A DNA stretch of 64,000 bases from a virus (IMGVR_UViG_3300037804_000399:26832-90831), one strand, 5' to 3'. Shown: positions 16,417-56,677, numbered from the stretch's first letter. Numbers and translations are program-made. The notes: generated from the sequence alone by a model not told the origin.

Positions 16417-19400
16417 ATGGTTGACAAGAAAGGTTCGGACTTCAATCAAGGCGAATTGTTAAAGAAGTATATTAACAACCCTGAATGGATCCGAACATAT
16501 GAAACGTTGTGGAATACTCTCGAAACATCTACTCAATTAGTAGGGGCTGAAATACATGAGAAAACTAGAAATTATGTACAGAACCTACGTGACATAGACC
16601 TTTGTGAAACAAAAGCTCTAAGATCAATAGTTACAGAACTTCAAGTCGACAATATGGAAATTGTTGACGCTCTTCCTAAAGAGATTCAACGACTAGTCGA
16701 TATCTTTTCAATTAACCCTTCCCTTCTTTTAACAGATGGAATGGTTTTTGAAGATTACATGGAAACGTTTGAAGCAGAAGTTCAAGCCATATATGCAAAA
16801 TACTTTCCCACTCAGTTCTTCCTTCGTCAATTTGAATTTGATGACGCAGAAGTAAAGTGGAACAACCAACCTATAGAAGAATTCGTAGATAGATACGCTT
16901 GTAAGGTTGTTAATATAATTAACAAATACAAAGAAGAATCTGAATCTGATATTGATGAACTTGATATTACAAATGAAATGTTATTTGATTCTTCCGAACC
17001 TAGATTCTATGATTCAAGTGATGTTGATTTTGTAGGAACGCTTGAAGGCGTAATCCAAAATACAATAGCTGATAGACTTTACGATCAATTTAGCACTGAT
17101 ATCGAAACAGGAATTTACCGTCAAAGCATTTCAGAAGATGGAGACAATCCAGTATTTGGAGATGTATTCGGATTTACTTGGATTGTGGACGATGAGAACT
17201 TCATGAAAGTTCAAATCAAAGCAAATATTGAAACAATTTTCAAAGCATTTAACGATAGTGTTATTCTTGGAGAATCATACTACGTACCTTTCCAAGTGTT
17301 TACTGTAACTCAACTTTCAATTACTAGTGGGTTAATACTTCCAGAGCACGTCTCTAAGACGTATACTCGCTCGAAGGTGATACTGAACGGGGTAGCAACA
17401 TTTATCGATGATGAAGACATCTCAGAATGGATGGCATTGATTGTTAGAAGATTTGAAGACTCTTCATTCTTTATTGATGACGCAGAATCTAAAATAGAAT
17501 CTTTAGAATATGTTCAGTTCCGTCAAAAGTTTCCACCTACAGTTACAGAATATATCAATCTTGTTGATCCAGCTGCTACTGAAATAGATGAAAGTTTCGT
17601 TTGGGACATTATTGGTCTTGATCCACTTAACGAAGAACGTGATGTTTTGTATCATGAATGTTATGCTGGAAAGACAATGCTCGATTTGTTTATCATTGCT
17701 CAGTTCACTGATACTCTTTACAAGCACTGGTTAGAAGAATCTTACCAGTCATTGGTTGAAAACATTTTAGATCAAAACTTTGAATTTGGCACAGATGCTG
17801 ATTACAAATACAGAGGCGTTTACCAAATAATTGGTGATGATGCCAAAACAGAATTAGATGCACTTGCACCTTCACAATTTGAAAAAGACCATTACCTAAT
17901 TACATTAACTAATGAAGTTGAACAGTTCTTTGTATATAACGGTTTAGAGTGGCTGGAACAATGTCCGTTCAGAGATCTGGATCGAATCACAGAAGCTGCT
18001 GCTGAAAGCCTTCTTGACACCTGTAAACGTATTAGACTACAACGTAACAATTTAAAAGAGATTGCTCAACGCCATGCTATTATTGGTACCAACAGAGCTG
18101 TTGAAAGTGTTTTCACAGATTATGTATTAAGATCATTTACTCAATTAGAAGATTGGGAAATGACAACTGTCACTGATGATCGTAATTGGAGATTAGTTGG
18201 TGCAATAACTTTACAAGATTATGAACAAACTGCTGCTGGGTTATATGTAGATGATGATATAAAAATTGGAACATATAAAAGAGTTTTGGTTGCAAACCAA
18301 TATACTGATTATGTTGTATTCAGAAGTAAACAAACTTCAACATTAGTTGCAACTGAAATTGGATTATCAGACGAATTCGAATTTAATACTGATTCTGTTT
18401 ATAACTTGAATGACATTCTTCCTTCACTTGGAACATTAGATTCAAAAGTAAAAGTTATTGAATATTGGGATACAACAGAGTATTTTAATATTGAACCAAC
18501 CGAGACTAAGTATCTTACTGGACCGATCAATAAACGTATCAGTATGAAAGATGTTGTTAATATTACAGATGATGGTGATCTTGAGATTGCTGAAACTGGC
18601 GAACTAGTAGAATTCATAGAAGGTCAATCAAAATATCAAATCTTTAATCAGTATCTTGATAAAGGAAATCCTCAATACTGGAATGATAACAAGGAAACAA
18701 ATTACTCTACAAGTCGTGAAAACAGCATAAACTTTTCAGATGAAGAAGTTTCCGAAAGAAAGAGATTCATGGGATCTTACAGTCCAATCGATCTTGTATT
18801 CAGTGCTGGTCTGTCAAGAATTGAAACTCCTGGCCCGTTGAGAAGTTCAGATATCCAAGCTGGTGATTACTACGATGTAAACTTTACTGTACCTGATTTT
18901 GCAAACACTGCATATACAGCAGCTCAATTAGCAGCTGTTGATGCAAATGCAACAAACGGTCTTGATGCAATGGATTTAATCCAACAAGAAGCTTATTACA
19001 CTAATCTTTATTCATCTCTCGATGATCAAGAGATTTTTGACGATGGTGCTCAATGGATTTTATCTTACAAGAGAGGCGATGCAGAAAAAGCTGAAGGTTT
19101 AACTTTTGATGATGCTAAAGACTGGGATCCTGAAAACGTTTTACATCAAACATATATTTTAAAAAGAGCTAGAACCAAAGCAATACGTTTTTGGGGACAA
19201 GGCGCTGACATAAACTTCATGTCATTTAAATTTGATAATTGGTTCAAGATTTCATTAGAAGAATGGTTGATCAACAATCAAGACAAACACATGACTCAAT
19301 TCTGGAATGATGTTGGTATGAAGGGTGACTGGGAAGCTGACATACGTCCTATCCTTGATCAATACTGGAACATGCATGCTTCATCAGGATATTTAGATAC

Positions 19401-22400
19401 TGAACTTTATGATATCCATAAGAAATACATTGGTGTTTCAAAATCAAGATTGTTAGAAGGTGCTATTACAAAAGATCCTAGTACTGGAACATGGGACTTT
19501 GAAAATTTTGTTAGAGAAGTTGCTCACGAAGGATCACACCCTGCAGCAAACTATAAAAACTCACTTTACCCAACTATTCAACACCAACCATTCCTTTGGA
19601 ACTTGGTAGAAAAACTTGCGGTTGTTTTCCCTTCAGTATTGTTTACTGTATTAGTAGGAGAAGGTGAAGAAGTTTTAAACCGTTTAAGTCAAATAGATGA
19701 ATTTGGTAACTTGATTGACAGTTGGAAACATACTCACCAAGAGTTTATGTCATACCAAACTAGATATGAAGCTTCTACTAATACAGGAATTGCTTCAATA
19801 AGCGATCCGCAGATTGATAGAGATGGTCCATTTAATCCAGATGCGTTAAAAGAATTAATTAAATCAAATGCTGAACCTCTTTCAGATAAGAGTTCGTTCG
19901 GAAATGATTTTGTTGAAATCTTTAGAAATGATTATTACGGATACGCATCTGTGTTCTCAGATTTTTATTTCCTACAAGCTGAAAAAGCAAAGATTCAATT
20001 TCACTTGGATCGCATTGACGGTGTAAAAGAATTTGATATTGTTGGAATACCAACAGGAGATGAAGATTTATTTGGATTGAGAAATCAAAAGATCTTTCAA
20101 TTTGCTGCTGATCAAAATGAATATCACTATACCCTTTACAAAGATGTAAACATCAAAGATTGCCCTGGACAGCTTTGGGTTCGTTATAATAATTTCCCAT
20201 TCTCATTTCCAGTTGCTGTCGACCAAACAGATCTTATCACATATGATGATACATTAGTAAGTATTAATCAATTAGAAACTAGAGATGTTTCACTCGTAAA
20301 CGTTATGAATAACTGTTACGATTTTGGAATACAGCAAAACATTATTTGGGCACTTGGAGATAATCACGGCGAACTAACATGGACGGTTTTAAATGTTGGA
20401 TTTACTCTTAATGATGAAGTAAGAACATCTCTTTATACAATCATTAATAACGCAACACCTTATGTATTTTTAGAGAATGAACATTATGTTGGTACTCACT
20501 TTAATGGTGATACTATTATTCTTGTAATTTATAATGAAGAAACAAATAAATTTACAAATAAATATATTGATCTTATCGAATTAGTTTACTTACCTGACAG
20601 AACATATTCTGTAGGTGATGATATGAGATTCTTTAAAGATTCTGATGAAGCGCTTATCCAAGGACATGCTCTTTCAAATACTACAGTAAGAATTTGTCGT
20701 CCAGTTGATCTACCAACCACTCTTCCAGCTACAACTACTACTGAAGGACCAATTATTGTTGTTCCTCCTGCGACTACTCTTGGACCGACTACATTAGCAC
20801 CTCCTACCACATTAGCACCAACAACTACAGTGGGACCAACAACTACAGTGGGACCAACAACTACAACAACTATTTGTCCATCATTAAAAGAAGATCTATT
20901 TGTAAGATGGCAGTATCAATCTTCATATGTTCACGAACAACCTACTCCGAGAGATATAATTGTAAAGGTATATCGTGACCCACTAAGTACATTTACTGGA
21001 GCATTTTCAGTAGCTTATAATACATTAGATGAAGGTGATCCAGGTTCGCAGTGGCCAAGAACTCAATTTCCAGATACAGGCCCTTCAGCTGAGAAAATAA
21101 AAGATTACATACCTAAAGCAGATTTCATTTATTTTGCAGAAGGTCAAATGGAAGCGGAAGTAAAAATTACTATTCTTCCAAGTGCTCAACCAGAAAATGC
21201 AGAATATTTCTATATTAGAATGACTGATTTCTTATTCAACGATTGTTGTGAAGTTAATTCAAATGTGGTTGAACAGAATCCGCATATGATTTTAATAACA
21301 GATAGATGTTGCCCTTGTCCTGAAACTACTTCTACTACAAGTACATCTACTTCAACATCTACTTCAACAAGTACTTCAACAAGTACTTCAACATCTACAA
21401 GTACTTCAACATCTACTTCAACAAGTACAAGTACTTCAACAAGTACTTCAACAAGTACTTCAACAAGTACTTCAACAAGTACTTCAACAAGTACTTCAAC
21501 ATCTACAAGTACTTCAACAAGTACTTCTACATCTACAAGTACATCTACTTCTACATCTACAAGTACATCTACTTCTACTTCAACAAGTACATCTACTTCT
21601 ACATCTACTTCTACATCTACAAGTACATCTACATCTACTTCAACAAGTACATCTACTTCTACATCTACTTCTACATCTACAAGTACATCTACATCTACTT
21701 CAACAAGTACATCTACATCTACTTCTACTTCAACAAGTACATCTACTTCTACTTCAACAAGTACATCTACAAGTACATCTACTTCAACAAGTACTTCTAC
21801 ATCAACAAGTACATCTACTTCAACAAGTACCACAACACTAGCACCTACGACAAGTACCACAACAAGTACCTCTACTTCTACTACAAGTACATCAACATCT
21901 ACTTCAACAAGTACATCAACAAGTACAAGTACTTCAACAAGTACATCTACTTCAACATCTACTTCAACAAGTACTTCAACAAGTACATCTACTTCAACAT
22001 CTACTTCAACATCTACTTCAACAAGTACAAGTACTTCAACAAGTACCACAACACTAGCACCTACGACAAGTACAACTAGTACATCTACAACTAGTACATC
22101 TTCAACAAGTACATCTACTACGTTGCCACCAGTATTAAGTTGGAAGTATGTTCCATGTCCGACTACAACAAGTACTTCGACAAGTACTTCAACATCTACA
22201 AGTACAACTACACTTGCACCTACAACAAGTACTTCGACTTCGACTTCAACAAGTACTTCAACAAGTACTTCAACAAGTACTTCAACAAGTACTTCGACAA
22301 GTACAAGTACTTCAACATCTACAACTACACTTGCACCTACAACAAGTACTTCGACTTCAACAAGTACTTCGACAACTACATTAGCTCCTACAACTAGTAC

Positions 22401-23094
22401 GACTACGACTACAACGACTGGTGTACCTACAACAACAACTACTCCGGCTCCAATATTAAGCTATGAGTATGAAGAATGTTTTCCAGTTACAACAACTACT
22501 GCGGCTCCAACAACGACTCCGACTCCAACCACTAGTACAACATCTGCGCCGATGGGAGCAGTTGGAACTCCGAACGGTGATCCGACTATGTTGATAACTC
22601 TAAACTGGACTCCAGGTGACGCTACTAAAAACTATCTAGGAGAAAGCTGGACTCCTGGAGAGACAAAAATAGCTTATTCTTCTGATCCATATAGAAAAGG
22701 AGTTTACACTGGCGGAGCAACTATCGAATCAGAATTCTGGGGAATTAATGCAGCTGGTGTGAACAACGATAAATTTGTATTAGCAGCATTCATTTCTGCT
22801 GCAGCGGGATATAGACATTATGATAAAGTTCACTATGCTGCTGAAAATGCAAAGATTACAATAGGATCAAATTACACTTTTAATTCTGCACAAGCAAGTT
22901 CAAAAATATTATCCTTTACTCCTGAAGGAAATGCTTTTCCATTTGGAGGTCCGTGGGGTACAGCAATAAATACTGTCAGTAGTGGAATATTAGTAAATAT
23001 TGGCCAAGGATATATTCAACCTCTTCAGTTTTCTGGAATGGTTGCTCTAACAAACGGATTAACAATTTCATGGTCACAAGGAACTGGGTGGTAA
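16417..23094 (+). CDS. 7: Baseplate wedge gp7-like protein with giant Thr-Ser linker and C-terminal adhesin domain
   Basis: At 2225 residues this is more than twice T4 gp7 (1032). The N-terminal part (about 1-1430) is the wedge-like region and follows gp6 as in T4. After residue 1432 come Thr/Pro linkers, a beta domain at about 1489-1636 ending in a CCPCP cluster, a 266-residue pure Thr-Ser tract (1637-1902), two short L-S-(W/Y)-x-Y hinge segments with Cys, a second Thr-rich tract, and a C-terminal domain from about 2046. That domain has G-D-P-T-M-L-I and W-T-P-G-E-T-K motifs shared with the genes at 23096, 24584 and 26886. The tail probably projects a receptor-binding domain from the baseplate. 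Confidence 0.75.
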   Translation: MVDKKGSDFNQGELLKKYINNPEWIRTYETLWNTLETSTQLVGAEIHEKTRNYVQNLRDIDLCETKALRSIVTELQVDNMEIVDALPKEIQRLVDIFSINPSLLLTDGMVFEDYMETFEAEVQAIYAKYFPTQFFLRQFEFDDAEVKWNNQPIEEFVDRYACKVVNIINKYKEESESDIDELDITNEMLFDSSEPRFYDSSDVDFVGTLEGVIQNTIADRLYDQFSTDIETGIYRQSISEDGDNPVFGDVFGFTWIVDDENFMKVQIKANIETIFKAFNDSVILGESYYVPFQVFTVTQLSITSGLILPEHVSKTYTRSKVILNGVATFIDDEDISEWMALIVRRFEDSSFFIDDAESKIESLEYVQFRQKFPPTVTEYINLVDPAATEIDESFVWDIIGLDPLNEERDVLYHECYAGKTMLDLFIIAQFTDTLYKHWLEESYQSLVENILDQNFEFGTDADYKYRGVYQIIGDDAKTELDALAPSQFEKDHYLITLTNEVEQFFVYNGLEWLEQCPFRDLDRITEAAAESLLDTCKRIRLQRNNLKEIAQRHAIIGTNRAVESVFTDYVLRSFTQLEDWEMTTVTDDRNWRLVGAITLQDYEQTAAGLYVDDDIKIGTYKRVLVANQYTDYVVFRSKQTSTLVATEIGLSDEFEFNTDSVYNLNDILPSLGTLDSKVKVIEYWDTTEYFNIEPTETKYLTGPINKRISMKDVVNITDDGDLEIAETGELVEFIEGQSKYQIFNQYLDKGNPQYWNDNKETNYSTSRENSINFSDEEVSERKRFMGSYSPIDLVFSAGLSRIETPGPLRSSDIQAGDYYDVNFTVPDFANTAYTAAQLAAVDANATNGLDAMDLIQQEAYYTNLYSSLDDQEIFDDGAQWILSYKRGDAEKAEGLTFDDAKDWDPENVLHQTYILKRARTKAIRFWGQGADINFMSFKFDNWFKISLEEWLINNQDKHMTQFWNDVGMKGDWEADIRPILDQYWNMHASSGYLDTELYDIHKKYIGVSKSRLLEGAITKDPSTGTWDFENFVREVAHEGSHPAANYKNSLYPTIQHQPFLWNLVEKLAVVFPSVLFTVLVGEGEEVLNRLSQIDEFGNLIDSWKHTHQEFMSYQTRYEASTNTGIASISDPQIDRDGPFNPDALKELIKSNAEPLSDKSSFGNDFVEIFRNDYYGYASVFSDFYFLQAEKAKIQFHLDRIDGVKEFDIVGIPTGDEDLFGLRNQKIFQFAADQNEYHYTLYKDVNIKDCPGQLWVRYNNFPFSFPVAVDQTDLITYDDTLVSINQLETRDVSLVNVMNNCYDFGIQQNIIWALGDNHGELTWTVLNVGFTLNDEVRTSLYTIINNATPYVFLENEHYVGTHFNGDTIILVIYNEETNKFTNKYIDLIELVYLPDRTYSVGDDMRFFKDSDEALIQGHALSNTTVRICRPVDLPTTLPATTTTEGPIIVVPPATTLGPTTLAPPTTLAPTTTVGPTTTVGPTTTTTICPSLKEDLFVRWQYQSSYVHEQPTPRDIIVKVYRDPLSTFTGAFSVAYNTLDEGDPGSQWPRTQFPDTGPSAEKIKDYIPKADFIYFAEGQMEAEVKITILPSAQPENAEYFYIRMTDFLFNDCCEVNSNVVEQNPHMILITDRCCPCPETTSTTSTSTSTSTSTSTSTSTSTSTSTSTSTSTSTSTSTSTSTSTSTSTSTSTSTSTSTSTSTSTSTSTSTSTSTSTSTSTSTSTSTSTSTSTSTSTSTSTSTSTSTSTSTSTSTSTSTSTSTSTSTSTSTSTSTSTSTSTSTSTSTSTSTSTSTSTSTSTSTSTSTSTTTLAPTTSTTTSTSTSTTSTSTSTSTSTSTSTSTSTSTSTSTSTSTSTSTSTSTSTSTSTSTSTSTSTSTSTTTLAPTTSTTSTSTTSTSSTSTSTTLPPVLSWKYVPCPTTTSTSTSTSTSTSTTTLAPTTSTSTSTSTSTSTSTSTSTSTSTSTSTSTSTSTTTLAPTTSTSTSTSTSTTTLAPTTSTTTTTTTGVPTTTTTPAPILSYEYEECFPVTTTTAAPTTTPTPTTSTTSAPMGAVGTPNGDPTMLITLNWTPGDATKNYLGESWTPGETKIAYSSDPYRKGVYTGGATIESEFWGINAAGVNNDKFVLAAFISAAAGYRHYDKVHYAAENAKITIGSNYTFNSAQASSKILSFTPEGNAFPFGGPWGTAINTVSSGILVNIGQGYIQPLQFSGMVALTNGLTISWSQGTGW
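21325..22122 (+). repeat. Thr-Ser coding hexamer repeat (about 800 bp)
   Basis: This is an almost uninterrupted run of 6-bp units (ACAAGT, ACTTCA, ACATCT, ACTTCT) all encoding Thr-Ser, mixed so that perfect long repeats are limited. Gains or losses of whole units keep the frame. Two TTLAPTTS interruptions are visible near 21829-21850 and 22043-22070. Confidence 0.95.
22162..22449 (+). repeat. Second Thr-Ser/Thr-Pro coding repeat
   Basis: Further hexamer units after the first hinge, with TTTLAPTTS interruptions, ending in Thr-rich GVPTTTTTPAP. Confidence 0.9.
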
Positions 23095-23095
23095 A

Positions 23096-24019
23096 ATGGC
23101 AGATTTATATTTAGATGCAGATTACGGAAACTTTATAAGACATTTAGGAATATGCTACATGTTAGAAGATCCTGACTTTGTAACCCCTCCGGACTTTGCA
23201 GGTCCACCAGACGAGGTTGGATTTACTGATTGTGATGATTGTGAATCAACTCCTATTACAACAACCACTCTCGGACCTACAACAAGTACTACACCAGCAC
23301 CATTGTCAATTGTAGGACCAGTTAACGGCGATGGAACAATGCTAATTAAATTAGAATGGACGTCAACTGCAGTTGCAAGTGTTTCTATAGCCAGTCCTTC
23401 TCAAATTACTACATCTGCTGTTCACAATTACGAAACAGGAGATTCGATTACTATTAGTGGAACAGATACTACGCCGTCAATAAACGGAACACATATAGTA
23501 ACAAAAATAGATGCTAACAACTTTACTATTCCAGTCAATGTTACTGCAGTAGTTTCTGGTGTAGGAGCAACTGAATTTGCAACTGTTCCATTTGTAGGAG
23601 GTAGTTGGACAAACGGCGAAACTAAAAAAGTTTATTCACAGGCAGGTGGGTATGTATATGAAACTAGTTATTATCCTTCAATTACCTCATACTCTGGATC
23701 AGCTGAAAGATGGGTAAGAGTGGTAAGCGGAGACACATTTAGAGTAGGAGGATTCGAAAAGCAATTAGGAACTTTCGCGGGTAAAATCAGTGACGGAAAT
23801 TTAATAGTCAAAGGATTGCATGGAGCAAATTTGTATATGGATAACTATACTAATGGATCATATGGATTTGCTGGCACTCCTACAAGTGATAATATAGCAA
23901 GTAAAGCACTGGCTGCTGCTGGTATCGTGAGAGGATTCCCATGTGGAGCTCCTCAAAAATCATCTTCATTCGTTACTACGCATGATATAACTATAACATG
24001 GTCTCCACAAGGATGGTAA
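23096..24019 (+). CDS. Adhesin-family tail protein (N- and C-terminal shared domains)
   Basis: A 307-residue protein starting two bases after gp7. The N-terminal domain (MADLYLDADYGN, then I-C-Y, F-A-G-P-P and D-C-D-D-C-E) recurs in the genes at 24021 and 26886 and may be the attachment module. A short TTTTLGPTTSTTPAP linker follows. The C-terminal domain (G-D-G-T-M-L-I, S-W-T-N-G-E-T-K-K-V-Y, ending S-P-Q-G-W) is homologous to the end of gp7. An inserted beta segment with H-N-Y-E-T-G-D-S-I-T-I-S-G lies near residue 115. Probably a baseplate-anchored receptor-binding or decoration protein; the role is inferred. Confidence 0.7.
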   Translation: MADLYLDADYGNFIRHLGICYMLEDPDFVTPPDFAGPPDEVGFTDCDDCESTPITTTTLGPTTSTTPAPLSIVGPVNGDGTMLIKLEWTSTAVASVSIASPSQITTSAVHNYETGDSITISGTDTTPSINGTHIVTKIDANNFTIPVNVTAVVSGVGATEFATVPFVGGSWTNGETKKVYSQAGGYVYETSYYPSITSYSGSAERWVRVVSGDTFRVGGFEKQLGTFAGKISDGNLIVKGLHGANLYMDNYTNGSYGFAGTPTSDNIASKALAAAGIVRGFPCGAPQKSSSFVTTHDITITWSPQGW

Positions 24020-24020
24020 T

Positions 24021-24554
24021 ATGGCAGATTTAAAATTAGATGCGGATTACGGAAATGTTGTAAGACATAATGCAATCTGTTATATACTTGATAGAGTAGA
24101 GGCTGGCGTTGCTGACTTTGCAGGTCCACCAGAAGGAATTAATTTTGATGATTGTGACGAATGTCACAATGCACCATTTCCACCTATGTCACTTGTGACA
24201 TTAGAGCAAACAGGCGTTCTCGTTGAAGGCGACCCACTTGGTCAGCTAGTAGGTAATTTTGTTATAACTGGAGGAAAGTTTCCGTTTACCATTGCACTCA
24301 TAGTCGGAGTTGATGATGATGACAATGCACATTATCAGATTAACGGCAATGATCTCGAATTAAGTAACACTGGAGGAACCGTAACACCTTCAAGTTCTAT
24401 TAGAGTGGAAGTAACAGATGCTCTAGGTAATAAATTAGAATCAGTTATAACTGTAATTGTTGCTCCTATCTTAGGTACAAAAACTATTACATTAACACCA
24501 GGTGATAACTTATTTGATTATGATTTTAATGAACCAGTAGGAACATTAAACTAA
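24021..24554 (+). CDS. Adhesin-family protein, N-terminal part (possibly split gene)
   Basis: A 177-residue protein. It begins with the shared attachment-like domain (MADLKLDADYGN, I-C-Y, F-A-G-P-P, D-C-D-E-C-H) and continues with one cadherin-like/Ig-like domain (E-G-D-P-L-G, I-T-G-G, H-Y-Q-I-N, L-E-L-S). It lacks the C-terminal W-x-x-G-E-T-K domain of its relatives, which is found in the next gene. Its ribosome site (AAGGATGG) lies within the last codons of the previous gene. It may be one half of a gene that has been interrupted. Confidence 0.65.
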   Translation: MADLKLDADYGNVVRHNAICYILDRVEAGVADFAGPPEGINFDDCDECHNAPFPPMSLVTLEQTGVLVEGDPLGQLVGNFVITGGKFPFTIALIVGVDDDDNAHYQINGNDLELSNTGGTVTPSSSIRVEVTDALGNKLESVITVIVAPILGTKTITLTPGDNLFDYDFNEPVGTLN

Positions 24555-24583
24555 TGAATACAATTAATAAAGGAATGGTATAA

Positions 24584-25564
24584 ATGGCTGATGTATATAG
24601 TATAGCACCAGATCCTCAAGGTTTAGGTAGAGATGTTGATAATTTAAAATTTAGCATAGAGATTCCAAATACATTAAATGTATCTGTAGCGGGACCTTAT
24701 CCAGCCGGCACTTATAAGGTTACGGTAAAAGTAGTTGATGATGTTACTATGGAATTTGGGTATGGATTTTTCAATGTAGTTATATATGCTTCCATTACAG
24801 ATTTTATACTTAATCAAACAAATACTCCTAACGAAGGAGATCCAATCAGTACCTTAATAGGTGACTTACAAGTTACTGGAGGAACCGCCCCTTTTGTTTT
24901 TGCACTAATAGCTGGATTTGGAGACGGAGACAATCCCCATTATCAAATAAATCTTGCGGATTTAGAACTAAGTGGTACTGGTGGATCTACAGAACCTACA
25001 GATTCAATTTACGCAAGAGTGACTGATGCAAATGGTGACGAAGCATTTGACAACTTTATTATAAACTTAGATGCTCCTGGTGCTCCATTAGCAACAATAG
25101 GAACTCCAAATGCTGACCCTACATTGTTTATTAAAGTAGAATCTGCAAATGCTGGAGGTACTGCATTATTTCCTTATAATTTCCTAGATGAAGATTTTAC
25201 TGACGGTGAAACAAAAGAAGTATATGGAACTTATGTTAATGTAGCTCTATTAAAATCTTGGACTATTGGAGCTGGTGATGATAGCGTCACAATAGCTGAT
25301 GATAAAGTAGTATCACCAGCATCATATACTGTTATAACTGCAAACTCCGCTAGTGAGAATCTTCGCCGAGGAAAAGACAACGGTGATTTTGTTTGGGGTG
25401 GATATTTTGCTCCAGATGCTAGTGTAAATGTAGTTAGTACTACCATCGTAGCTGCCACTCCTAATGATGTATTAGATGCTAGCAATTATGGCGAAGTTGT
25501 ATTTGACATTTCGGGTGGCGGGAATCATGTTAAAATAACAATAAGCGAAGGAAATGGTTGGTAA
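24584..25564 (+). CDS. Adhesin-family protein, C-terminal part (possibly split gene)
   Basis: A 326-residue protein with AAGGAATGG ribosome site. It lacks the shared N-terminal domain. It has a partial Ig-like segment (Y-P-A-G-T-Y-K-V-T-V), a cadherin-like domain closely similar to that of the gene at 24021 (E-G-D-P-I-S, V-T-G-G, H-Y-Q-I-N, L-E-L-S), and the C-terminal domain (A-D-P-T-L-F-I, F-T-D-G-E-T-K-E-V-Y, ending G-N-G-W). Together the two proteins equal one complete family member. Tail location is inferred from context. Confidence 0.65.
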   Translation: MADVYSIAPDPQGLGRDVDNLKFSIEIPNTLNVSVAGPYPAGTYKVTVKVVDDVTMEFGYGFFNVVIYASITDFILNQTNTPNEGDPISTLIGDLQVTGGTAPFVFALIAGFGDGDNPHYQINLADLELSGTGGSTEPTDSIYARVTDANGDEAFDNFIINLDAPGAPLATIGTPNADPTLFIKVESANAGGTALFPYNFLDEDFTDGETKEVYGTYVNVALLKSWTIGAGDDSVTIADDKVVSPASYTVITANSASENLRRGKDNGDFVWGGYFAPDASVNVVSTTIVAATPNDVLDASNYGEVVFDISGGGNHVKITISEGNGW

Positions 25565-25587: not shown

Positions 25588-25634
25588 ATTCCTCAATACT
25601 AGAATATAATTAAATTGTAAATGTATTGAGGAAT
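25588..25634 (+). promoter_or_regulatory. Inverted repeat covering the ribosome site of sulfotransferase 1, with a nested late-promoter-like sequence
   Basis: ATTCCTCAATAC (25588-25599) and GTATTGAGGAAT (25623-25634) are perfect 12-bp arms with a 23-nt loop. The 3' arm contains the GAGGAA Shine-Dalgarno of the ATG at 25640. In the loop, TATAATTA (25605-25612) differs by one base from the late consensus; transcripts starting near 25618 would lack the 5' arm and be open for translation. Confidence 0.65.
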
Positions 25635-25639
25635 AAAAA

Positions 25640-26770
25640 ATGATTATAGTAAGTGGATGCCCTAGATCTGGAACTAGTTTAACTATGGATATTCTTCGTA
25701 AGGCGACTGGCGAAGAGAACATGATTGCTTCAAAATTTCCACAGAAAAGAGAGTTAGAAATCACAAGAGGGGAGGACGAATCAGATAGTGATTTCCAAAT
25801 ACGAAATTATTTGTTTCAAAAATTCAAACGTCCAGATAGAGATGATGATTATACTGACATGAATCCAAACGGATTTTGGGAATGTAAATTTTCTGTATTA
25901 GGAGTCGGAGCTGAATACGGGTCAAGACTATTCAATTATCACTCTGCAAAGTTTACCGAAACACTATTAGACACTGGTAAAGATAAAATTTGTAAAATCG
26001 TAAGTCAAGGTTTAATGTCATCCGATGTAAGATATATTGATAAAGTAATTTATTTAATAAGACATCCTAGAAACGTTGCAAAATCTCATGAAAGATTAAA
26101 GAGAGGGTTTGATGTTAAAGTAAATGGCAAGAAGCAAAATATATTTGAAGGATTGACCATACACACTCCTGAGATGTATATAGGAGTTACCATTCAAGCT
26201 TGTAGATGGATTTTAGAAAATCCAACCGTGCCAATATTATTTGTTAACTTTGATGATTTGTTATCTAACCCAACTGAAACAATTGACACTATTGCAGAGT
26301 TTGTCGAGTTCGGAGATTTTGAAAAATCTAAAACTATTGTAGATCCAGTGTTGAATAGAAGTAAAATTCAAGACATCGAACATGTGCTTTGGGAAGATGC
26401 TGAATTTGTTTATGAACAGTTTAATAAACAAAACTATCAGGAAATATTAGATTACTTCGAAGATCCTACAAGAGCATATAGAAAATACACAGATAAATTT
26501 ATTTGCACTAGAACAAATGATGAAGTAACCAATCGTGATTGTCAGAGTTGTTTATCGAGTGACGTAGTCAAATACAATAAAAAAGTATTAGCCAATCACA
26601 AACAGATTGATTATTTAAAAGAACCTTGTATGTATGAATGCGGAAAGAATGTTGATACTGATTCATATAAAACCATTGAAGAAAGTATTAAAAACCATAC
26701 TTGGGATAATGGAAAGAAAATAATAGACGGAAAACTGGATGTTATTCCTAGTGGAAATACTTTAGGATAA
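25640..26770 (+). CDS. Sulfotransferase 1 (PAPS-dependent P-loop type)
   Basis: A 376-residue protein. The N-terminus V-S-G-C-P-R-S-G-T-S (residues 4-13) is the 5'-phosphosulfate binding loop of PAPS sulfotransferases, and I-R-H-P-R-N-V-A-K-S (R141 to S149) the 3'-phosphate site. A Cys module at the C-terminus (C-x(n)-D-C-x2-C, later N-H-K and E-P-C) is shared with the gene at 30336 and is not part of the usual sulfotransferase fold. The gene lies between adhesin genes, so a tail protein or a host surface glycan are plausible acceptors. Translation may be limited to late transcripts by the leader hairpin. Confidence 0.75.
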   Translation: MIIVSGCPRSGTSLTMDILRKATGEENMIASKFPQKRELEITRGEDESDSDFQIRNYLFQKFKRPDRDDDYTDMNPNGFWECKFSVLGVGAEYGSRLFNYHSAKFTETLLDTGKDKICKIVSQGLMSSDVRYIDKVIYLIRHPRNVAKSHERLKRGFDVKVNGKKQNIFEGLTIHTPEMYIGVTIQACRWILENPTVPILFVNFDDLLSNPTETIDTIAEFVEFGDFEKSKTIVDPVLNRSKIQDIEHVLWEDAEFVYEQFNKQNYQEILDYFEDPTRAYRKYTDKFICTRTNDEVTNRDCQSCLSSDVVKYNKKVLANHKQIDYLKEPCMYECGKNVDTDSYKTIEESIKNHTWDNGKKIIDGKLDVIPSGNTLG

Positions 26771-26783
26771 TATTTTTAGGATA

Positions 26784-26870
26784 TGGTTAATATATTCAAA
26801 GAATAATAAGTAAATAAGGATACTGTAACAATATTTTTGGAATACTTATGACTCGAGAATATATTAACCA
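26784..26870 (+). promoter_or_regulatory. Long inverted repeat in the leader of the large adhesin gene
   Basis: TGGTTAATATATTC (26784-26797) and GAATATATTAACCA (26857-26870) are perfect 14-bp arms. An inner pair (ATAAGTA 26806-26812 with TACTTAT 26843-26849) would extend the fold. The 3' arm lies 15 nt before the ATG at 26886 and within a 12-codon open frame. It has no T tract, so a translational control element is more likely than a terminator. Confidence 0.55.
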
Positions 26871-26886
26871 CATGGACAAATTATAA
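26848..26886 (+). CDS. Possible 12-residue leader peptide upstream of the large adhesin
   Basis: ATG 26848 begins M-T-R-E-Y-I-N-H-M-D-K-L and stops in TAATG, overlapping the adhesin start. A TTGGAA sequence 5 nt upstream could serve as ribosome site. Translating it would open the 3' arm of the inverted repeat and deliver ribosomes to ATG 26886. Too short to prove by composition. Confidence 0.35.
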   Translation: MTREYINHMDKL

Positions 26887-29800
26887 TGGCAAATATTTAT
26901 TTAGATACTGATACTCACGGAGAGTATATAAAACATAATGATATTTGTTACAAGCGTGTAGGTCCGAGTACCACTGAGCCAGCAACTGTATTTGGAGCTC
27001 CTGATGAGACTGGATTTGCAGATTGTGACGATTGTGAGTTTGATCCCCCTGTATTCTTCGGAGAGTTTGATTATGAAACTGAAGAAGAAGGAAGTCTCAC
27101 TGCATTTACTGCTACCGCTACCGATACTGACACATATGAAATAATAGAACAACGAGATGAAGCCTTTTTTAACATAAATCCTGTAACTGGAGAAATAGTA
27201 TGGAAAACCGCTCCCGATTTTGATGACGCTAGAGATGAAAATTACGACAACAATTATGTTCTTAGAATACGAGCAACTGGACCAGGTGGACAAACTTTTC
27301 AATTTTATTCTGTTACAGTAACCAATATTTCAGAATTACCTGAATTTTATGGACCATCTACAAGGGAAAGATTTGATGGTTATGATGAAGGAATGACAAT
27401 TACAGCACACGATACAACTTCTTTTTCTATGATAGGCGGAGAAGACATTTCCAAATTTTCGTTAGATCCCACAACGGGCGTTTTAACATTTCTAGCAATA
27501 CCTGATTTTGCTTCCCCTGGTGATTTTGATGCAGATAATGAATATCATGTAACTGTAAGAGCAACGGGACCTGGTGGGTTTGCTGACAGAAACTTTACGA
27601 TATTTATAAGTGAATTTCCAACGGCTAGATGTACTGAATACGGAGCTGATGATATATTAGGAAATTTACCAACTAACACACATCCAACGATAGACTATAA
27701 AATAGAAGGAATGAATTTAGCTGGTGATAAATGGGTTGCTCAATTTGCGAGACTGATGTGTGATAGTAATGGAGTACAGGCTGGAAGATGGTATTCAGTA
27801 AAAGCAAATAGAGGTGCAAGCGGGACCCTAGTTTTCGACACTAACTATATAGAAACAAACTTACGACACCGCTGGACTACAGTAGCTGTTTCTAGTTTAG
27901 GATTTGGAGACGAAGACGTTGGACAATTTTACTTCGATATAGACAAAGATTCTGCAACCATTTTTATGGTGGTAAATTATGGTCTAATTAGACAAGGAAT
28001 ACGTTTCTCTTCTACTTGGAGATCTAATGATTACAAGGATGTCTTTAATCTAGATGGAAATTGGCAACACAGTTTTGATTCTTTAGGAACAAGCGCAACA
28101 TTAATTTCATCAACATGGGATAACTACAATTCTGGAGTGTCTGCTTTAGGAGTACAAGCACCGACAGGAGATTGGACGAATACTGCAACACCAACTTACA
28201 TTGAAGATCAAAAGATAACAGATGCTATGTTCGGAGAAATTGTATTTGACATAGGCTCATCGGGATTTGCCAGTCCGATAAGAGTAAAACTTTCAACTAG
28301 ACGTGGTACAGGAATAAATCCTGATTGGAATGATGTTCCAGCTCCTGTTGCTCCTGAAATAATTGGACCAACAAAATACGTAGTAAATGATGGAGTAATG
28401 CCAGCATTTCAAGTGAATGTAAAGGATAGAACATTTGAACCCACTTATACAATATCCGGTGGAGCCGATGCTGCTCTATTTACTGTTGACGCTAGAGGAT
28501 TTGTAAATTTTAAAGTAGCTACTAATTATTCAGCACCTACTGATGCTGGCGCAAATAACAAATATGATCTTCAAATTACAGCTACAAATGATCAAGGAGC
28601 TGATTCAGAAACTTATGAAATCACTGTTATAGGAGTATCTGGTGTAGTTGGTCCGATACAAACTCTTAATTTTTCTGGTTCGGGAACAACTGATCCAACT
28701 AGTTTAGACAATACAGTATTTGTAAAGTATGTTGGTGGTGGTGGAGAAGGTGTTTCTGCTTTTAATAAAACGTGGAACTCGGGTCAGTTAGGACATGTAT
28801 TTGTTGATTATACAGATGCTAGTCCAAATGGAGAATCCATTGCTATTTCAATTGGTGACTCTGTATTGAACATTTCTGATTTAAGTGATACTGCAATAAT
28901 AGAATTTACAGTACGTGCTGGGTTGACTTTGGACTTAGAAAAGATTTTAGCTCCTTTAGCTGATAATGATACTTCAGTGGGAGTTGAATCTCACACTTTA
29001 GATTTTACATATAATGATTCTATTTCAGATCAGTTTGGTAGAGTTACATTTACAAACGGAGAAGTGTGGGAATTTTTAAGAGGAAGTAATTGGCCTGCTC
29101 CGACAGCGCCAGTATTCACAGGAGCCACAGCTCATAGTCTTACAACAGGATATTCCAATCCGTTCACTGCCACTGCAAATCCAAATACTTATGATCTAAA
29201 TTTTGCAATAACAGGTGGAGCAGATGCAGCTGTGTTTAATATCACATATGACGGCACAGTTACTTTTATAGTTCCTCCTGATTTTTCAGCACCAATAGAT
29301 GCGGGTGCAAATAATGTTTATGATTTGGAAATCACTGCTACTAATGAAACAGGATCCACTGTACAAGCCTTTACTGTGACTGTGAATGATTTTACATTAC
29401 CAGTTTTTAATGGTCCTTTTGCATTGAACGTAGATGAAGAACAAACAGATATTTTGACAGTTGATGTTCAATTTAATGATTATCCTCCTACTTTTTCAAT
29501 AGTTAGTGGAGTGGATGAAGCTCTATTTGCGGTTGATAATATAACTGGTGTGGTTACATTTATAGCAGCTCCTGACTTTTTAACTCCGTTAGATGTTGGT
29601 GCTAATAATGTTTATGATTTTGAAGTTACAGCAACTAATCCTGCAGGTGATCAGACTCAAGCTTATGTTATAACAGTTGATCAATTACCATTGCCTGTTT
29701 TTACAGGAACGTTTATTCTTGAAATATCGGAAGGGTCAGCAGCTTTTACAGCAGTAGCTACTAACACTCCAACGTTTGCTATAACTGGAGGATTGGATCA

Positions 29801-30323
29801 ATCCTTATTTGATATTGTACCAGCTACTGGAGTTGTAACATTCTCACCAGCAGTATTATTTGCTTCACCTACTGACAATGGTGCTAACAATGTATATGAT
29901 GTTGAAATAACAGCAACTAATTTAGGCGGTTCAGTTGCTCAAGCATACGCGATAACTATTAGAGATCCAGCTTTAGTTCAAGAGATAGGAATAGAAATCG
30001 CAGGAGATCCACATGCTGAGATTACTTGGTCTTGGTCTGACGCTGCTGCAACAAAAGATTGGTTAGGTGAGACTTGGTCCAACGGAGAAACTAAACTAGT
30101 ACATGATGAATTTGCAGGAGCAAATGCTTCAGGATTTTACAGAGGTAATTATTCAGTAGGAAGCATTTATGTTGGCGGCTCGGTAAATGCAACATCTGGA
30201 AATATATTTGCTTATGGATCATCAATTGGATTTATGTCTGGTTATGGTAATTTAAATACAGGAGTTGTGTTAGTATCTGGTACAAATACAATGACATTAT
30301 TGATGAAAGCATCATTAACTTAA
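26886..30323 (+). CDS. Large modular adhesin with six cadherin-like repeats
   Basis: A 1145-residue protein. The N-terminus is the shared domain (MANIYLDTDTHG, I-C-Y, F-G-A-P-D-E, D-C-D-D-C-E). Six cadherin-like units of about 95 residues follow, with the pattern F-x-I-x-x-x-T-G-x-V-T-F, A-P-D-F, (G)-A-N-N-x-Y-D, I-T-A-T-N; they lie near residues 54-150, 151-243, 490-583, and three from 740 to 1035. Between and after them are domains with the W-x-x-G-(E/Q)-x-K motif; the last has T-K-D-W-L-G-E-T-W-S-N-G-E-T-K as in gp7. Such arrays usually form extended stalks. A host-recognition role is inferred. Confidence 0.75.
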   Translation: MANIYLDTDTHGEYIKHNDICYKRVGPSTTEPATVFGAPDETGFADCDDCEFDPPVFFGEFDYETEEEGSLTAFTATATDTDTYEIIEQRDEAFFNINPVTGEIVWKTAPDFDDARDENYDNNYVLRIRATGPGGQTFQFYSVTVTNISELPEFYGPSTRERFDGYDEGMTITAHDTTSFSMIGGEDISKFSLDPTTGVLTFLAIPDFASPGDFDADNEYHVTVRATGPGGFADRNFTIFISEFPTARCTEYGADDILGNLPTNTHPTIDYKIEGMNLAGDKWVAQFARLMCDSNGVQAGRWYSVKANRGASGTLVFDTNYIETNLRHRWTTVAVSSLGFGDEDVGQFYFDIDKDSATIFMVVNYGLIRQGIRFSSTWRSNDYKDVFNLDGNWQHSFDSLGTSATLISSTWDNYNSGVSALGVQAPTGDWTNTATPTYIEDQKITDAMFGEIVFDIGSSGFASPIRVKLSTRRGTGINPDWNDVPAPVAPEIIGPTKYVVNDGVMPAFQVNVKDRTFEPTYTISGGADAALFTVDARGFVNFKVATNYSAPTDAGANNKYDLQITATNDQGADSETYEITVIGVSGVVGPIQTLNFSGSGTTDPTSLDNTVFVKYVGGGGEGVSAFNKTWNSGQLGHVFVDYTDASPNGESIAISIGDSVLNISDLSDTAIIEFTVRAGLTLDLEKILAPLADNDTSVGVESHTLDFTYNDSISDQFGRVTFTNGEVWEFLRGSNWPAPTAPVFTGATAHSLTTGYSNPFTATANPNTYDLNFAITGGADAAVFNITYDGTVTFIVPPDFSAPIDAGANNVYDLEITATNETGSTVQAFTVTVNDFTLPVFNGPFALNVDEEQTDILTVDVQFNDYPPTFSIVSGVDEALFAVDNITGVVTFIAAPDFLTPLDVGANNVYDFEVTATNPAGDQTQAYVITVDQLPLPVFTGTFILEISEGSAAFTAVATNTPTFAITGGLDQSLFDIVPATGVVTFSPAVLFASPTDNGANNVYDVEITATNLGGSVAQAYAITIRDPALVQEIGIEIAGDPHAEITWSWSDAAATKDWLGETWSNGETKLVHDEFAGANASGFYRGNYSVGSIYVGGSVNATSGNIFAYGSSIGFMSGYGNLNTGVVLVSGTNTMTLLMKASLT

Positions 30324-30335
30324 TAGGAAAATGAA

Positions 30336-31226
30336 ATGATTGTAGTAACAGGAACTCCTCGTAGTGGAACTTCATTAGCAATGTTATCATTGGCAAAGTT
30401 AATTGGCAAAGATAAAATAGTAGGAGATAAGTTCCCTCAGAAAAAGAAAGCTCAAAATGCTGCCGAACGATATGTATATGAATTGAAGAATAATAATAAC
30501 TTGAACCCTACAGGGTTTTGGGAAAATTTAAAGTATATATCCAATGGATTTTCATATTCATCAGAAAATGAAAAAGAGTTTTATAAACTATCGACATCCT
30601 CTGATCATGCTGTTAAAATAATTGCTACTGGGTTACCAAAAACAGAACCAAAGTATATTGACAAGTTAGTCATCTGTTTGAGAGATCCTCTTGAAACTGC
30701 AACATCACAAACCGGACTTGTTGGACAAATTGGTCCAAGTGAAGCTGACCCTAAAAAACAAATCTTTGATTTAATAACGATTGCAAAATATATGATAGTA
30801 AATCCAAAGGTTGATTACTTTCTGCTGAATTATTCAGATCATAAGATAAATGCAAAATACACTATGGAACAATTAAGTGCATTTGTAGAAGTACCTTATA
30901 AGGAAAGCATTTACAAGGCCACTGGAAAGAAAACAATGAAGCGTCCCGATACAAAAATTTGGGACGAAGCATTTTACATTTACAATTTAATGATACAGGA
31001 AAATTTTCAAGCAGTGTGTGATTATTCCAATGATGTTACAACTGAGCTATCAAGACAAACAAAATCTTGGTTTTGTCCAAAGTTTGATTTTTTAACTAAT
31101 GATGATCGATGTAATACGTGTAGAAGCAATAGCAAGGTAAGAGAAAACTTTATTAAAAAAGCAAATCACAATAAACATGATCATGAAAACGAACCATGTT
31201 ACTTGGATCTATTAGAACAGGAGTAG
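30336..31226 (+). CDS. Sulfotransferase 2 (PAPS-dependent P-loop type)
   Basis: A 296-residue protein. V-T-G-T-P-R-S-G-T-S (residues 4-13) is the 5'-phosphosulfate loop; L-R-D-P-L-E-T-A-T-S (R116 to S124) is the 3'-phosphate site with the same R-to-S spacing as sulfotransferase 1. Both share F-P-Q-K-(K/R) after the loop, a G-F-W-E segment and the C-terminal module F-C-x(n)-R-C-x2-C with A-N-H-x-K and E-P-C. It starts 12 bp after the large adhesin gene and is probably in the same operon. The acceptor is unknown; a kinase is unlikely given the PRSGT loop. Confidence 0.75.
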   Translation: MIVVTGTPRSGTSLAMLSLAKLIGKDKIVGDKFPQKKKAQNAAERYVYELKNNNNLNPTGFWENLKYISNGFSYSSENEKEFYKLSTSSDHAVKIIATGLPKTEPKYIDKLVICLRDPLETATSQTGLVGQIGPSEADPKKQIFDLITIAKYMIVNPKVDYFLLNYSDHKINAKYTMEQLSAFVEVPYKESIYKATGKKTMKRPDTKIWDEAFYIYNLMIQENFQAVCDYSNDVTTELSRQTKSWFCPKFDFLTNDDRCNTCRSNSKVRENFIKKANHNKHDHENEPCYLDLLEQE

Positions 31227-31229
31227 TAA

Positions 31230-31727
31230 ATGAATTGGATTTACACATACAAAGCGCAAATATTACAAAAACTTCCACAGTTTGATTCAAATTATGATGA
31301 GATAGAAAAGAAGATTCAGAAAGCTGACTGTCCTAGATGTGTAAAGACTCGATATGAATTAAAACTGAAAAGACAAGTTTCTCAATCTATGAAACCTGGA
31401 ATGTTTCCTCCACAACTCGAACAACTTCTAGCAGCTTACAATCCTTCATATGGACAAAAGAATAAAATCAAAACAGTAAGTCTCAAACCAGAAGAGATTT
31501 CAATACTCGATGAACGAAAAGGATGTATTGATTGCGTTAGAAAACATATGAGCCAGGCAATAATTTTACTTCGTGAATGTAATCAAGGGTATGGTACAGA
31601 CGAATTTGAGCACAAGTGGTTAGCTGTAGGTCATTTAGCCGAAGCAGCTGATGAAGCGTTGCAAATAAATCCAGCATTGAGTATGAAGATTAGAGATCTC
31701 AGATTAATGATCATGGAACAAGAATGA
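31230..31727 (+). CDS. Cys-motif protein next to sulfotransferase 2, unknown function
   Basis: A 165-residue protein starting three bases after sulfotransferase 2. It has C-P-R-C near residue 34 and a distinctive C-terminal block: G-C-I-D-C-V-R-K-H, a helix, then H-K-W-L-A-V-G-H-L-A-E-A-A-D-E-A. The two CxxC pairs with His residues suggest a metal site. The C-x-x-C-(R) element recalls the Cys module of the sulfotransferases, so an accessory role with them is possible but unproven. Confidence 0.65.
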   Translation: MNWIYTYKAQILQKLPQFDSNYDEIEKKIQKADCPRCVKTRYELKLKRQVSQSMKPGMFPPQLEQLLAAYNPSYGQKNKIKTVSLKPEEISILDERKGCIDCVRKHMSQAIILLRECNQGYGTDEFEHKWLAVGHLAEAADEALQINPALSMKIRDLRLMIMEQE

Positions 31728-53991: not shown

Positions 53992-55620
53992 ATGAAAAAA
54001 ATTACTTTTGACGGTGAAGCTCGTTCTAAAATTCTTAATGGAGTAGCACAACTTGCAAAAACGGTAAAGAGCACTTTAGGTCCACAAGGTTGTAATGTGG
54101 TAATCGATAAAGGGAATCTAGCTATTCCTGTTATCACAAAAGATGGAGTGTCGGTTGCACGTGAAATTCATATTCCTGATAGAGTAGAAAACATTGGTGC
54201 GCAATTAGTAAAGAATGTTGCTAATCAAACTAATGATGTTGCTGGTGACGGTACAACTACTGCTACTGTTCTTGCTGAAGCAATCTATACTGAAGGTCTA
54301 AAAACAGCTGCTGCAGGAATGAGCACTGCTAGATTGAAAGAAGGTATAGAAATCGCAACTAAACTTGTTATAGCTCATTTAAATGATGTTAAAGTTGATG
54401 TTACAGATGATATGTTAGAGAAGATTGCTACTATATCTGCAAACAACGATAGTGAAATTGGAAAGTTGATTGCTGCATCTATTTTAAAGGTCGGTACTGA
54501 TGGAACTGTTCGTGTTGAAAATTCTCATACTTCAGAAACACATCTTACCTCAATTGATGGATTCCAATATGATAGAGGAATGATTTCTCATTACTTCTGT
54601 ACTGATGATGACATGATTGGTGCTGAGTATGAAGACGCATTTGTACTTTGTTATGATGGTGAAATTGATAATGCAAATGACATTCTCCCACTACTAGGAA
54701 ACTTTTTAAAGACACATAACAATGCTCCTCTTGTAATTGTGTGTGATGATATTAAAGCTGATGCTCTTACAACTATTGTTCAAAATCATTTAGCGGGAAG
54801 ACTTCGTGTACTGCCTGTTAAAACTCCTGGTTTTCATGAAAGTAAACAATCGATGCTTGAAGACGTAGCTTGTATTACTGGTGCAGTAGCAATTACAGCC
54901 AACTGTGGTATTAAGTTAGACGAAGCCTCTCTTGATGTCCTCGGAAAGGTTAAAAAGATTGTTGCTACATCAACTAGTACAACCATTTATGGATCTGTCC
55001 CAAAAGATGTTATTGATTCAAGAGCAAAATTGGTTCGTGAACAATTAGCAAGTGCCAAGAGTGAATATGCTCAGTTTAATAACAAACTAAGACTTGCTCG
55101 TTTAACTACAGGTATTTCAATCATCAATGTTGGTGGTGCTAATGAAGTAGAGCTTAAAGAAAAGAAGGATCGTATTGAAGATTCATTAAATGCTACAAAA
55201 GCAGCACTAAAGAAAGGTGTTGTTCCTGGTGGTGGTATTGCTTTACTTAGAGCAGGCGAAGCTATCAAATCTAAAATTGCAAAAATGAAATTACATCTTG
55301 AGGTGAAGGCTGGAGTTGATATTATTATCAACGCAACTAAATCTCCGATCAGAACCATTTGTGAAAACGGTGGAAATAACGGCGAAGTTATTTCAAATAA
55401 AGTTCTTGAACAGTCAGATGTTAATTATGGATATGATGCTCGTAATGAAGTTTACGGTGATATGTTTAAAGCAGGAGTTATTGATCCAGTTCTAGTTACA
55501 ATGACTGCTTTGACAAATGCAAGTTCAATCAGTGCACTTCTTTTGACTACAAATGCAGTTATAACTTTAGATCCAGAAGCTTATCATAAAATGAAAGCTG
55601 TTGCTGAATCTAATAACTAA
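53992..55620 (+). CDS. groEL: Phage chaperonin GroEL
   Basis: The full-length 542-residue chaperonin compares with 548 in E. coli. The ATP site is conserved: D-G-V-S-V-A, A-G-D-G-T-T-T-A-T-V-L-A, and the late P-G-G-G-I-A-L; the catalytic Asp position in R-I-E-D-S-L-N-A-T is present. The C-terminus lacks the GGM repeats of bacterial GroEL. It has its own promoter and an AAGGAAAC ribosome site. T4 itself relies on host GroEL. Together with the double GroES at 45829 it may form a phage chamber for folding large capsid or tail proteins. Confidence 0.95.
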   Translation: MKKITFDGEARSKILNGVAQLAKTVKSTLGPQGCNVVIDKGNLAIPVITKDGVSVAREIHIPDRVENIGAQLVKNVANQTNDVAGDGTTTATVLAEAIYTEGLKTAAAGMSTARLKEGIEIATKLVIAHLNDVKVDVTDDMLEKIATISANNDSEIGKLIAASILKVGTDGTVRVENSHTSETHLTSIDGFQYDRGMISHYFCTDDDMIGAEYEDAFVLCYDGEIDNANDILPLLGNFLKTHNNAPLVIVCDDIKADALTTIVQNHLAGRLRVLPVKTPGFHESKQSMLEDVACITGAVAITANCGIKLDEASLDVLGKVKKIVATSTSTTIYGSVPKDVIDSRAKLVREQLASAKSEYAQFNNKLRLARLTTGISIINVGGANEVELKEKKDRIEDSLNATKAALKKGVVPGGGIALLRAGEAIKSKIAKMKLHLEVKAGVDIIINATKSPIRTICENGGNNGEVISNKVLEQSDVNYGYDARNEVYGDMFKAGVIDPVLVTMTALTNASSISALLLTTNAVITLDPEAYHKMKAVAESNN

Positions 55621-55919: not shown

Positions 55920-56189
55920 ATGTCAGATGATGAAACAAAAGAATCTGTAACTGAAACAGATAAAAGTGTTGCAAGAGTAACACCGATGTTTTTACTGTTC
56001 TCTATATTTCTAGTATTAAAATTAACAGAAGTTATAGATTGGTCATGGTGGTTCGTCACAGCACCTTTATGGATTCCAAGCGCAATCATAATTTCGGTAC
56101 TCTCACTTATAGTTGCAGTGGTGTTAACAGTTATCGTGGTAGTATTATTAATCATAGCATGTAGAAAGGTGTTGAAAGCATGTCAGTAA
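55920..56189 (+). CDS. Small membrane protein upstream of APS kinase
   Basis: An 89-residue protein with a charged N-terminus and two hydrophobic segments, at about 23-38 and 50-82 (long Val/Ile/Leu run), ending A-C-R-K-V-L-K-A-C-Q. Ribosome site AAGGATTT. It overlaps the APS kinase gene by 10 nt. Function unknown. Confidence 0.7.
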   Translation: MSDDETKESVTETDKSVARVTPMFLLFSIFLVLKLTEVIDWSWWFVTAPLWIPSAIIISVLSLIVAVVLTVIVVVLLIIACRKVLKACQ

Positions 56190-56677
56190 CGTTTTGGTTT
56201 ACTGGACTACCGTGTTCAGGCAAGACATCAATTGCTGATGCTATCCATGAAGTATTTCCAGAATTTGTAAGGTTAGACGGAGATGTTATACGGAAAGGAA
56301 TTTGTTCCGATCTAACATTCTCTGATAAAGATAGAGTTGAAAACATTCGTCGGATTGCTCACATATGTCAATTATTCAATGATAACAAGTCAATAGTACT
56401 ATCTTCGTTCGTCAGTCCTACTAAAAGCATTCGTGATCAAATTAAAAATATTGTAGACAATGTGATTATCGTTCATGTTGACTGTAGTGTTGAAGAATGC
56501 GAACGGAGAGATGTAAAGGGAATGTGGAAACAGGCTCGTGAAGGGAAGATTAAAAACTGGACCGGTATAGATAGTCCGTATGAAACGCCCGTGGACTGCG
56601 ATTTCTACATCAACACAGAGCAAGAAACATTAAAAGAAAGTGTGTCAAAGTTCTTACAAAAGTATTTAATGATGTGA
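56180..56677 (+). CDS. cysC: Adenylylsulfate (APS) kinase
   Basis: A 165-residue protein, slightly shorter than bacterial CysC (about 200). Walker A is G9-L-P-C-S-G-K-T16; L-D-G-D (33-36) and R39 bind substrate; S-D-K-D-R-V-E-N-I-R-R, F-V-S-P-T-K-S-I-R-D and W-T-G-I-D-S-P-Y-E-T-P are all characteristic of APS kinases. It converts APS to PAPS, the sulfate donor for sulfotransferases. No ATP sulfurylase gene is seen, so APS must come from the host. Two phage sulfotransferases (25640, 30336) are the obvious consumers. Confidence 0.88.
   Translation: MSVTFWFTGLPCSGKTSIADAIHEVFPEFVRLDGDVIRKGICSDLTFSDKDRVENIRRIAHICQLFNDNKSIVLSSFVSPTKSIRDQIKNIVDNVIIVHVDCSVEECERRDVKGMWKQAREGKIKNWTGIDSPYETPVDCDFYINTEQETLKESVSKFLQKYLMM

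Follow-up and report, generated by a model that had tools for sequence, protein, structure and literature searches.

The DNA analysed here (hereafter the window) is a stretch of 64,000 nucleotides from a virus (IMGVR_UViG_3300037804_000399:26832-90831) and is part of a 90.8-kb virus record, which is probably a fragment of a genome. The source phage is large and T4-like, with genes coding for a gp6-type baseplate wedge, a gp43 DNA polymerase (sharing about 28% identity with the closest phage polymerases), an SbcC-like nuclease subunit, a topoisomerase II and GroEL. Two genes coding for predicted sulfotransferases, ST1 and ST2, alternate with adhesin genes (Table 1), as had been noticed in an earlier reading made from the sequence alone (the sequence-only reading), except that the adhesin region given there as 23096-25564 consists of three ORFs (beginning at 23096, 24021 and 24584). 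New relative to that reading are the Cys-rich C-terminal regions of ST1 and ST2, a domain that the adhesins share, and a Cys-motif gene right behind ST2. The adjoining ORFs 24021-24554 and 24584-25564 lie in different frames and have similar repeats; they may be separate genes, or a single gene that a frame change, in the assembly or in the phage, has split. The very long Ser/Thr repeat of the 2225-aa tail protein (21000-22400) gives rise to long but spurious ORFs, both on the opposite strand and in alternative frames. Further downstream, a phage-encoded GroEL-type chaperonin (53992-55620, PHROG E 1.6e-137) is found just upstream of an APS kinase gene.

Table 1. Features of the sulfotransferase-adhesin region and the APS kinase gene, in window coordinates
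Feature	Coordinates	Strand	Evidence
2225-aa tail protein; very long Ser/Thr repeats, then the C-terminal adhesin domain (22567-23091)	16417..23094	+	Domain HMM E 4e-34 (seed of that HMM); A3 profile E 1.4e-32
307-aa adhesin whose C-terminal domain (~23540-24001) is a divergent copy	23096..24019	+	A3 profile E 6.5e-5 (G000:50371-50832)
177-aa adhesin-like ORF; N-terminus common to 23096 and 26886; without the C-terminal domain	24021..24554	+	Translation
326-aa adhesin; C-terminal domain at 25103-25561; immediately upstream of ST1	24584..25564	+	HMM E 3e-18; A3 profile E 2.6e-23
Perfect 12-bp inverted repeat; 3' arm includes the likely ST1 Shine-Dalgarno GAGGAAT	25588..25634	+	RNA fold z -3.8
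ST1, predicted PAPS-dependent sulfotransferase; Cys-rich C-terminal region (C289, C301-x2-C304, P329-C330)	25640..26770	+	Pfam; fold match to PAPS sulfotransferases; family alignment
1145-aa adhesin with cadherin-type repeats; start of the C-terminal domain at ~30003-30254; immediately upstream of ST2	26886..30323	+	Pfam Cadherin 7.6e-15; A3 profile E 2.6e-8
ST2, divergent ST1 paralog, invariant residues kept	30336..31226	+	28% identity to ST1; alignment; family profile
165-aa Cys-motif protein (C-x2-C-V-x-K-H-x-S-x-A-x-x-L-x-x-E), directly after ST2	31230..31727	+	Homologs in two other phages
APS kinase, donor-making enzyme	56180..56677	+	PF01583 E 7.3e-49; PDB matches; motifs intact

Both sulfotransferase genes lie exactly where they had been placed and encode the two PAPS-binding motifs reported for them. 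ST1 (376 aa) has a GCPRSGTS loop at residues 6-13 and the motif R141-x7-S149, and matches PF00685 (E 6.8e-8, 32.7 bits, cut-off 22) and PF13469 (E 1.9e-6, 28.7 bits, cut-off 27). ST2 (296 aa) has a GTPRSGTS loop and an R-x7-S motif, its Pfam match being below threshold (E 0.2); it is homologous to ST1 (28% identity, E 2e-37 over 332 residues) and matches the 18-member family profile, which includes ST2 itself, with E 4.5e-92. ST2 is thus counted as a sulfotransferase because of its homology to ST1 and to the wider family, not through Pfam; it is also the one exception among the 18 aligned family members, 17 of which match both PF00685 and PF13469. A family profile search showed that ST1 and ST2 are the sole members in the 90.8-kb contig. 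The 18-member alignment has 23 invariant columns, including PAPS-loop residues, NPxGFWE, R-x7-S and Cys/PC residues. In particular, (i) R9-S10-G11-T12-S13 of the 5'-phosphosulfate-binding PAPS loop (PxRSGT[ST]) is invariant in 18/18 members, (ii) so are R141 and S149 of the 3'-phosphate-binding R-x7-S motif, (iii) Glu81, invariant within NPxGFWE, is a candidate catalytic base, and (iv) an invariant set of C-terminal cysteines (C, C-x2-C, P-C) could bind zinc.

Loss of the PAPS-binding fold in structure prediction had been named beforehand as evidence against a sulfation pathway; the ST1 model (pLDDT 81) keeps the sulfotransferase fold class. Indeed, all of the 50 PDB matches listed are sulfotransferase-fold proteins (TPST1/2, SULTs, polyketide-pathway domains), but the query-normalised Foldseek TM-scores are low (up to 0.34), so the claim is restricted to the fold class. 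The best PDB fold matches are the sulfotransferase domains of the olefin synthase and curacin pathways (4gox, 4gbm), which act on polyketide chains in megasynthases, whereas ST1 and ST2 stand alone beside adhesins and have a Cys-rich C-terminal region. With TPST1 and TPST2 (5wrj, 3ap1), ST1 shares the PAPS-sulfotransferase fold (fold-match probability 1.00) and a PxRSGT-type loop, and TPSTs act on proteins, as ST1 and ST2 would. However, identity in the fold match is 14% with a low TM-score, and no TPST was found among the phmmer PDB matches at E<=1; both enzymes are therefore classified as PAPS-dependent sulfotransferase-fold proteins and not as TPSTs. Animal TPSTs are Golgi membrane proteins, whereas ST1 and ST2 start at the PAPS loop (residue 6 in ST1), with no signal peptide or membrane anchor evident by inspection, as would be expected if the enzyme acts where virions assemble.

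A common, unnamed C-terminal domain is present on four adhesins of the window (16417, 23096 as a weak copy, 24584 and 26886), so that the long tail protein carries the same domain as the adhesins beside ST1 and ST2. These adhesins presumably act in host binding. The domain has no model in PHROGs or Pfam and no match in the phage database, and its structure model (pLDDT 68) has no significant PDB fold match. A Tyr is conserved in 20 of its 24 copies.

Pattern scans based on one protein at a time (ST1, ST2 or the DNA polymerase) detected no viral relative, and tblastn gave no match to ST1 or ST2 among 50,697 phage records. Relatives were found only with the paired alignment of ST1 and ST2, which yielded 21 loci in IMG/VR, and a second scan with the 18-member alignment added 10 more contigs. 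Together the scans give full-length homologs (31-42% identity) from about 25 further viral contigs, the largest measuring 476 kb, and three distant homologs. As to a bacterial source of the enzymes, a genome-collection scan returned weak matches only, in two myxobacteria and one archaeal MAG, none of them clear.

The sequence-only reading had called for a search for the same gene pairing in related genomes, and the adhesin link does recur in otherwise dissimilar phages. At most sulfotransferase loci the adjoining gene ends in the same motif-rich domain, which was recognized by eye and then also found there with a profile from the first loci. By our own count, the domain adjoins the enzyme in 19 of 27 distinct contigs and is undetected beside it in about eight; a 341-kb and a 232-kb contig each have a single copy, at 42 and 63 bp, respectively, from the enzyme. 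Since the profile seeds had been picked from sulfotransferase neighbours, the profile was tested on 10 contigs fetched afterwards, of which six match (E<=0.01, whole record), each having a copy at 5-557 bp from the enzyme gene, and a seventh (L068) gives a weak match. Compared with random placement, proximity in these six contigs is significant (Fisher P 1.3e-4; leaving out G029, which nearly duplicates G028, raises it to 3.9e-4). Extending the test to 15 contigs gives P 4e-11, but nine of these are the discovery contigs and hence non-independent. The sulfotransferase-adhesin association is confirmed and lies beyond chance.

The full domain alignment is too variable for a pattern scan, and two subgroups were used for reverse scans from the adhesin domain alone, which returned 11 loci, eight of them in sulfotransferase contigs. 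In the three others (L095, L098, L099) the domain has no nearby sulfotransferase; L098 and L099 are short contigs, and L095 has none within its 17.5 kb. In L095 (9911-11115) the domain adhesin is followed by a gene that is glycosyltransferase-like by eye, without a Pfam match. Extra domain copies are found far from the enzyme in G003, and in L015 (6249-9941) the adhesin upstream of the sulfotransferase homolog has collagen-like GxQG repeats in place of the shared domain. Few other neighbour genes recur across the sulfotransferase loci (BLASTP clustering), which suggests that enzyme and domain move as a module. Enzyme and domain distances are uncorrelated over 16 pairs (Mantel rho 0.03, P 0.41), the domain alignment being near saturation, so that no pairwise co-evolution is visible.

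The APS kinase gene had been described as complete, and it is intact: the protein matches a solved APS kinase with E 2.9e-35 and, like CysC (PF01583), has all the motifs examined (P-loop, LDGD, FSxxDRxEN and RDVKG). It is located 25 kb from ST2, outside its cluster. An APS kinase is encoded in 8 of 32 contigs including that of the window (7 of 31 relatives above the cut-off), and in five it lies less than 500 bp from the enzyme: it touches the sulfotransferase gene in G005, G008, G011 and G023 and is 491 bp away in G020, the order in G008 and G023 being adhesin-APS kinase-sulfotransferase. In the window contig (G000), G001 and G003, the distance is tens to hundreds of kb. Pooled over all eight contigs, the proximity has P 0.005. 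The suggestion that the APS kinase feeds the sulfotransferases thus draws support from adjacency in other phages, but not from position in the window phage.

ATP sulfurylase (PF01747) was detected in 0/22 contigs, including G000, and the PAPS reductase family (PF01507) in 1/22, a relative and not G000, bearing in mind that contigs may be incomplete; this argues against plain sulfate assimilation, and a sulfate-assimilation gene cluster was set aside for G000, where neither gene is found alongside the APS kinase. Viral APS kinases are widespread (at least 531 viral loci). PF13469 is matched in 21/50 viral APS-kinase records (42%, an uncontrolled figure), and a reverse scan of 80 APS kinase loci found few with a detectable ST homolog within 6 kb, so viral APS kinases are not specific to the ST family. 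In L112 (945-3694), an APS kinase is directly followed by three sulfotransferase-like genes in a row, distantly related to ST1.

Phage genes of the 'sulfotransferase family' have been described before in OM43 phages and cyanophages; they are of the PF13469 type, as here, and are listed as auxiliary metabolic genes whose biological function in phage genomes 'remains unclear' (PMC10580990). A protein of Synechococcus phage S-SCSM1 (BFVD) is also a fold match. Unlike for ST1 and ST2, no link of phage sulfotransferases with adhesins, tail fibres, APS kinase or sulfation was found in the open-access literature searched (subscription journals being outside the search), nor any report of sulfation of a phage virion protein.

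The proposal of a phage sulfation pathway acting on tail adhesins or on a host glycan is supported at the gene level by the two PAPS-binding sulfotransferases, the intact APS kinase and the recurring adhesin link. The acceptor may be Tyr, a Ser/Thr linker, an attached glycan or a host glycan. Ser/Thr-rich linkers, which had been suggested as acceptors, are unlikely in that general role and were dropped, since linkers are missing from several paired adhesins, which are short (e.g. L011, 209 aa; L017, 197 aa) and share the C-terminal domain instead. Starting from the enzyme family, its intact motifs, the recurring pairing and the APS kinase linkage in relatives, all of them features of the sequences, we infer catalytic activity of ST1 and ST2, an acceptor and a benefit. 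ST1 and ST2 would be cytoplasmic PAPS-dependent sulfotransferases modifying the phage's own tail adhesins during virion assembly. Their likely target would be the shared C-terminal domain, either at a side chain (e.g. the strongly conserved Tyr) or at a sugar added by another enzyme. The APS kinase would convert host-made APS into PAPS, so that the donor does not run short, and the receptor-binding end would become more negatively charged on sulfation, changing receptor binding, stability or recognition. Such a cytoplasmic adhesin-sulfation module, with a glycan on the adhesin included as acceptor, is the best reading and in our view has an even chance of being correct. The same evenly balanced confidence applies to the adhesin, or a glycan on it, as the best-supported acceptor, host glycans being less likely. 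The stronger form, in which the ST family is a dedicated virion-protein sulfation system, specific to one new adhesin domain, sometimes with its own APS kinase and shared between otherwise dissimilar large phages, is plausible but somewhat short of an even chance.

Part of this evidence could be read differently. A sulfated glycan might be built on the adhesin by the sulfotransferase and glycosyltransferases, the acceptor being the sugar and not the protein. Indeed, the enzyme gene is followed, at once or nearly so, by a glycosyltransferase gene in L004 (GT2), L062 (GT2) and L009 (GT9), and a sugar-transferase-like gene is the second downstream in L016, but this gene order occurs in only a few of the 27 contigs and no GT2 was found in the window's 90.8-kb contig (the host or a missing part of the genome could supply one), which leaves the explanation rather unlikely. 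Sulfation of a host surface glycan precursor or another small host molecule, leading to receptor change or a superinfection block, appears still less probable: the sulfotransferase gene is repeatedly within a structural adhesin cluster, beside one particular domain, and an unsystematic look noticed no membrane-bound glycan-transfer genes beside it, even though small acceptors and glycolipid precursors can be substrates of cytosolic sulfotransferases and a GT9-type gene adjoins one homolog.

The APS kinase could also be a separate metabolic gene (e.g. for sulfate assimilation), with the sulfotransferases using host PAPS, as its distance in the window, the abundance of viral APS kinases and the limited co-occurrence with PF13469 would allow; the absence of ATP sulfurylase and the near absence of PAPS reductase genes from the 22 contigs checked, and the contact or closeness to the sulfotransferase gene in five contigs, make this unlikely. 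Genes behind tail fibres often encode chaperones, and a sulfotransferase fold turned into a non-catalytic chaperone for adhesins would fit the location of the enzymes directly behind adhesin genes and their extra Cys-rich C-terminal region. This reading is very improbable, given that the PAPS-binding motifs, along with other residues, do not vary even among very divergent phages and that the APS kinase linkage implies PAPS use.

Returning to the adhesin-sulfation module, the gene-level evidence suggests that some phages may chemically modify their own adhesins, and with the recurring adhesin domain as a testable partner one can ask directly whether phages sulfate the receptor-binding proteins they encode. 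Were this the case, phage-host recognition would gain a new post-translational layer, and some phage 'sulfur metabolism' genes would have a structural purpose through the donor that a phage APS kinase supplies.

The Cys-motif protein encoded after ST2 belongs to a family without a Pfam or PHROG match that is found beside sulfation genes in three phages, its homologs immediately following the APS kinase gene in G005 and the sulfotransferase gene in G017; it is possibly an accessory part. The inverted repeat before ST1 is possibly a translational switch that could keep ST1 from being translated in long transcripts; strong hairpins ahead of the sulfotransferase gene are not an evident trait of the family. 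ST1 has hairpins on both sides, as a 31-nt inverted repeat (26767-26887, 77% complementary) spans the gap between ST1 and the following adhesin gene, with its 3' arm at the adhesin start codon.
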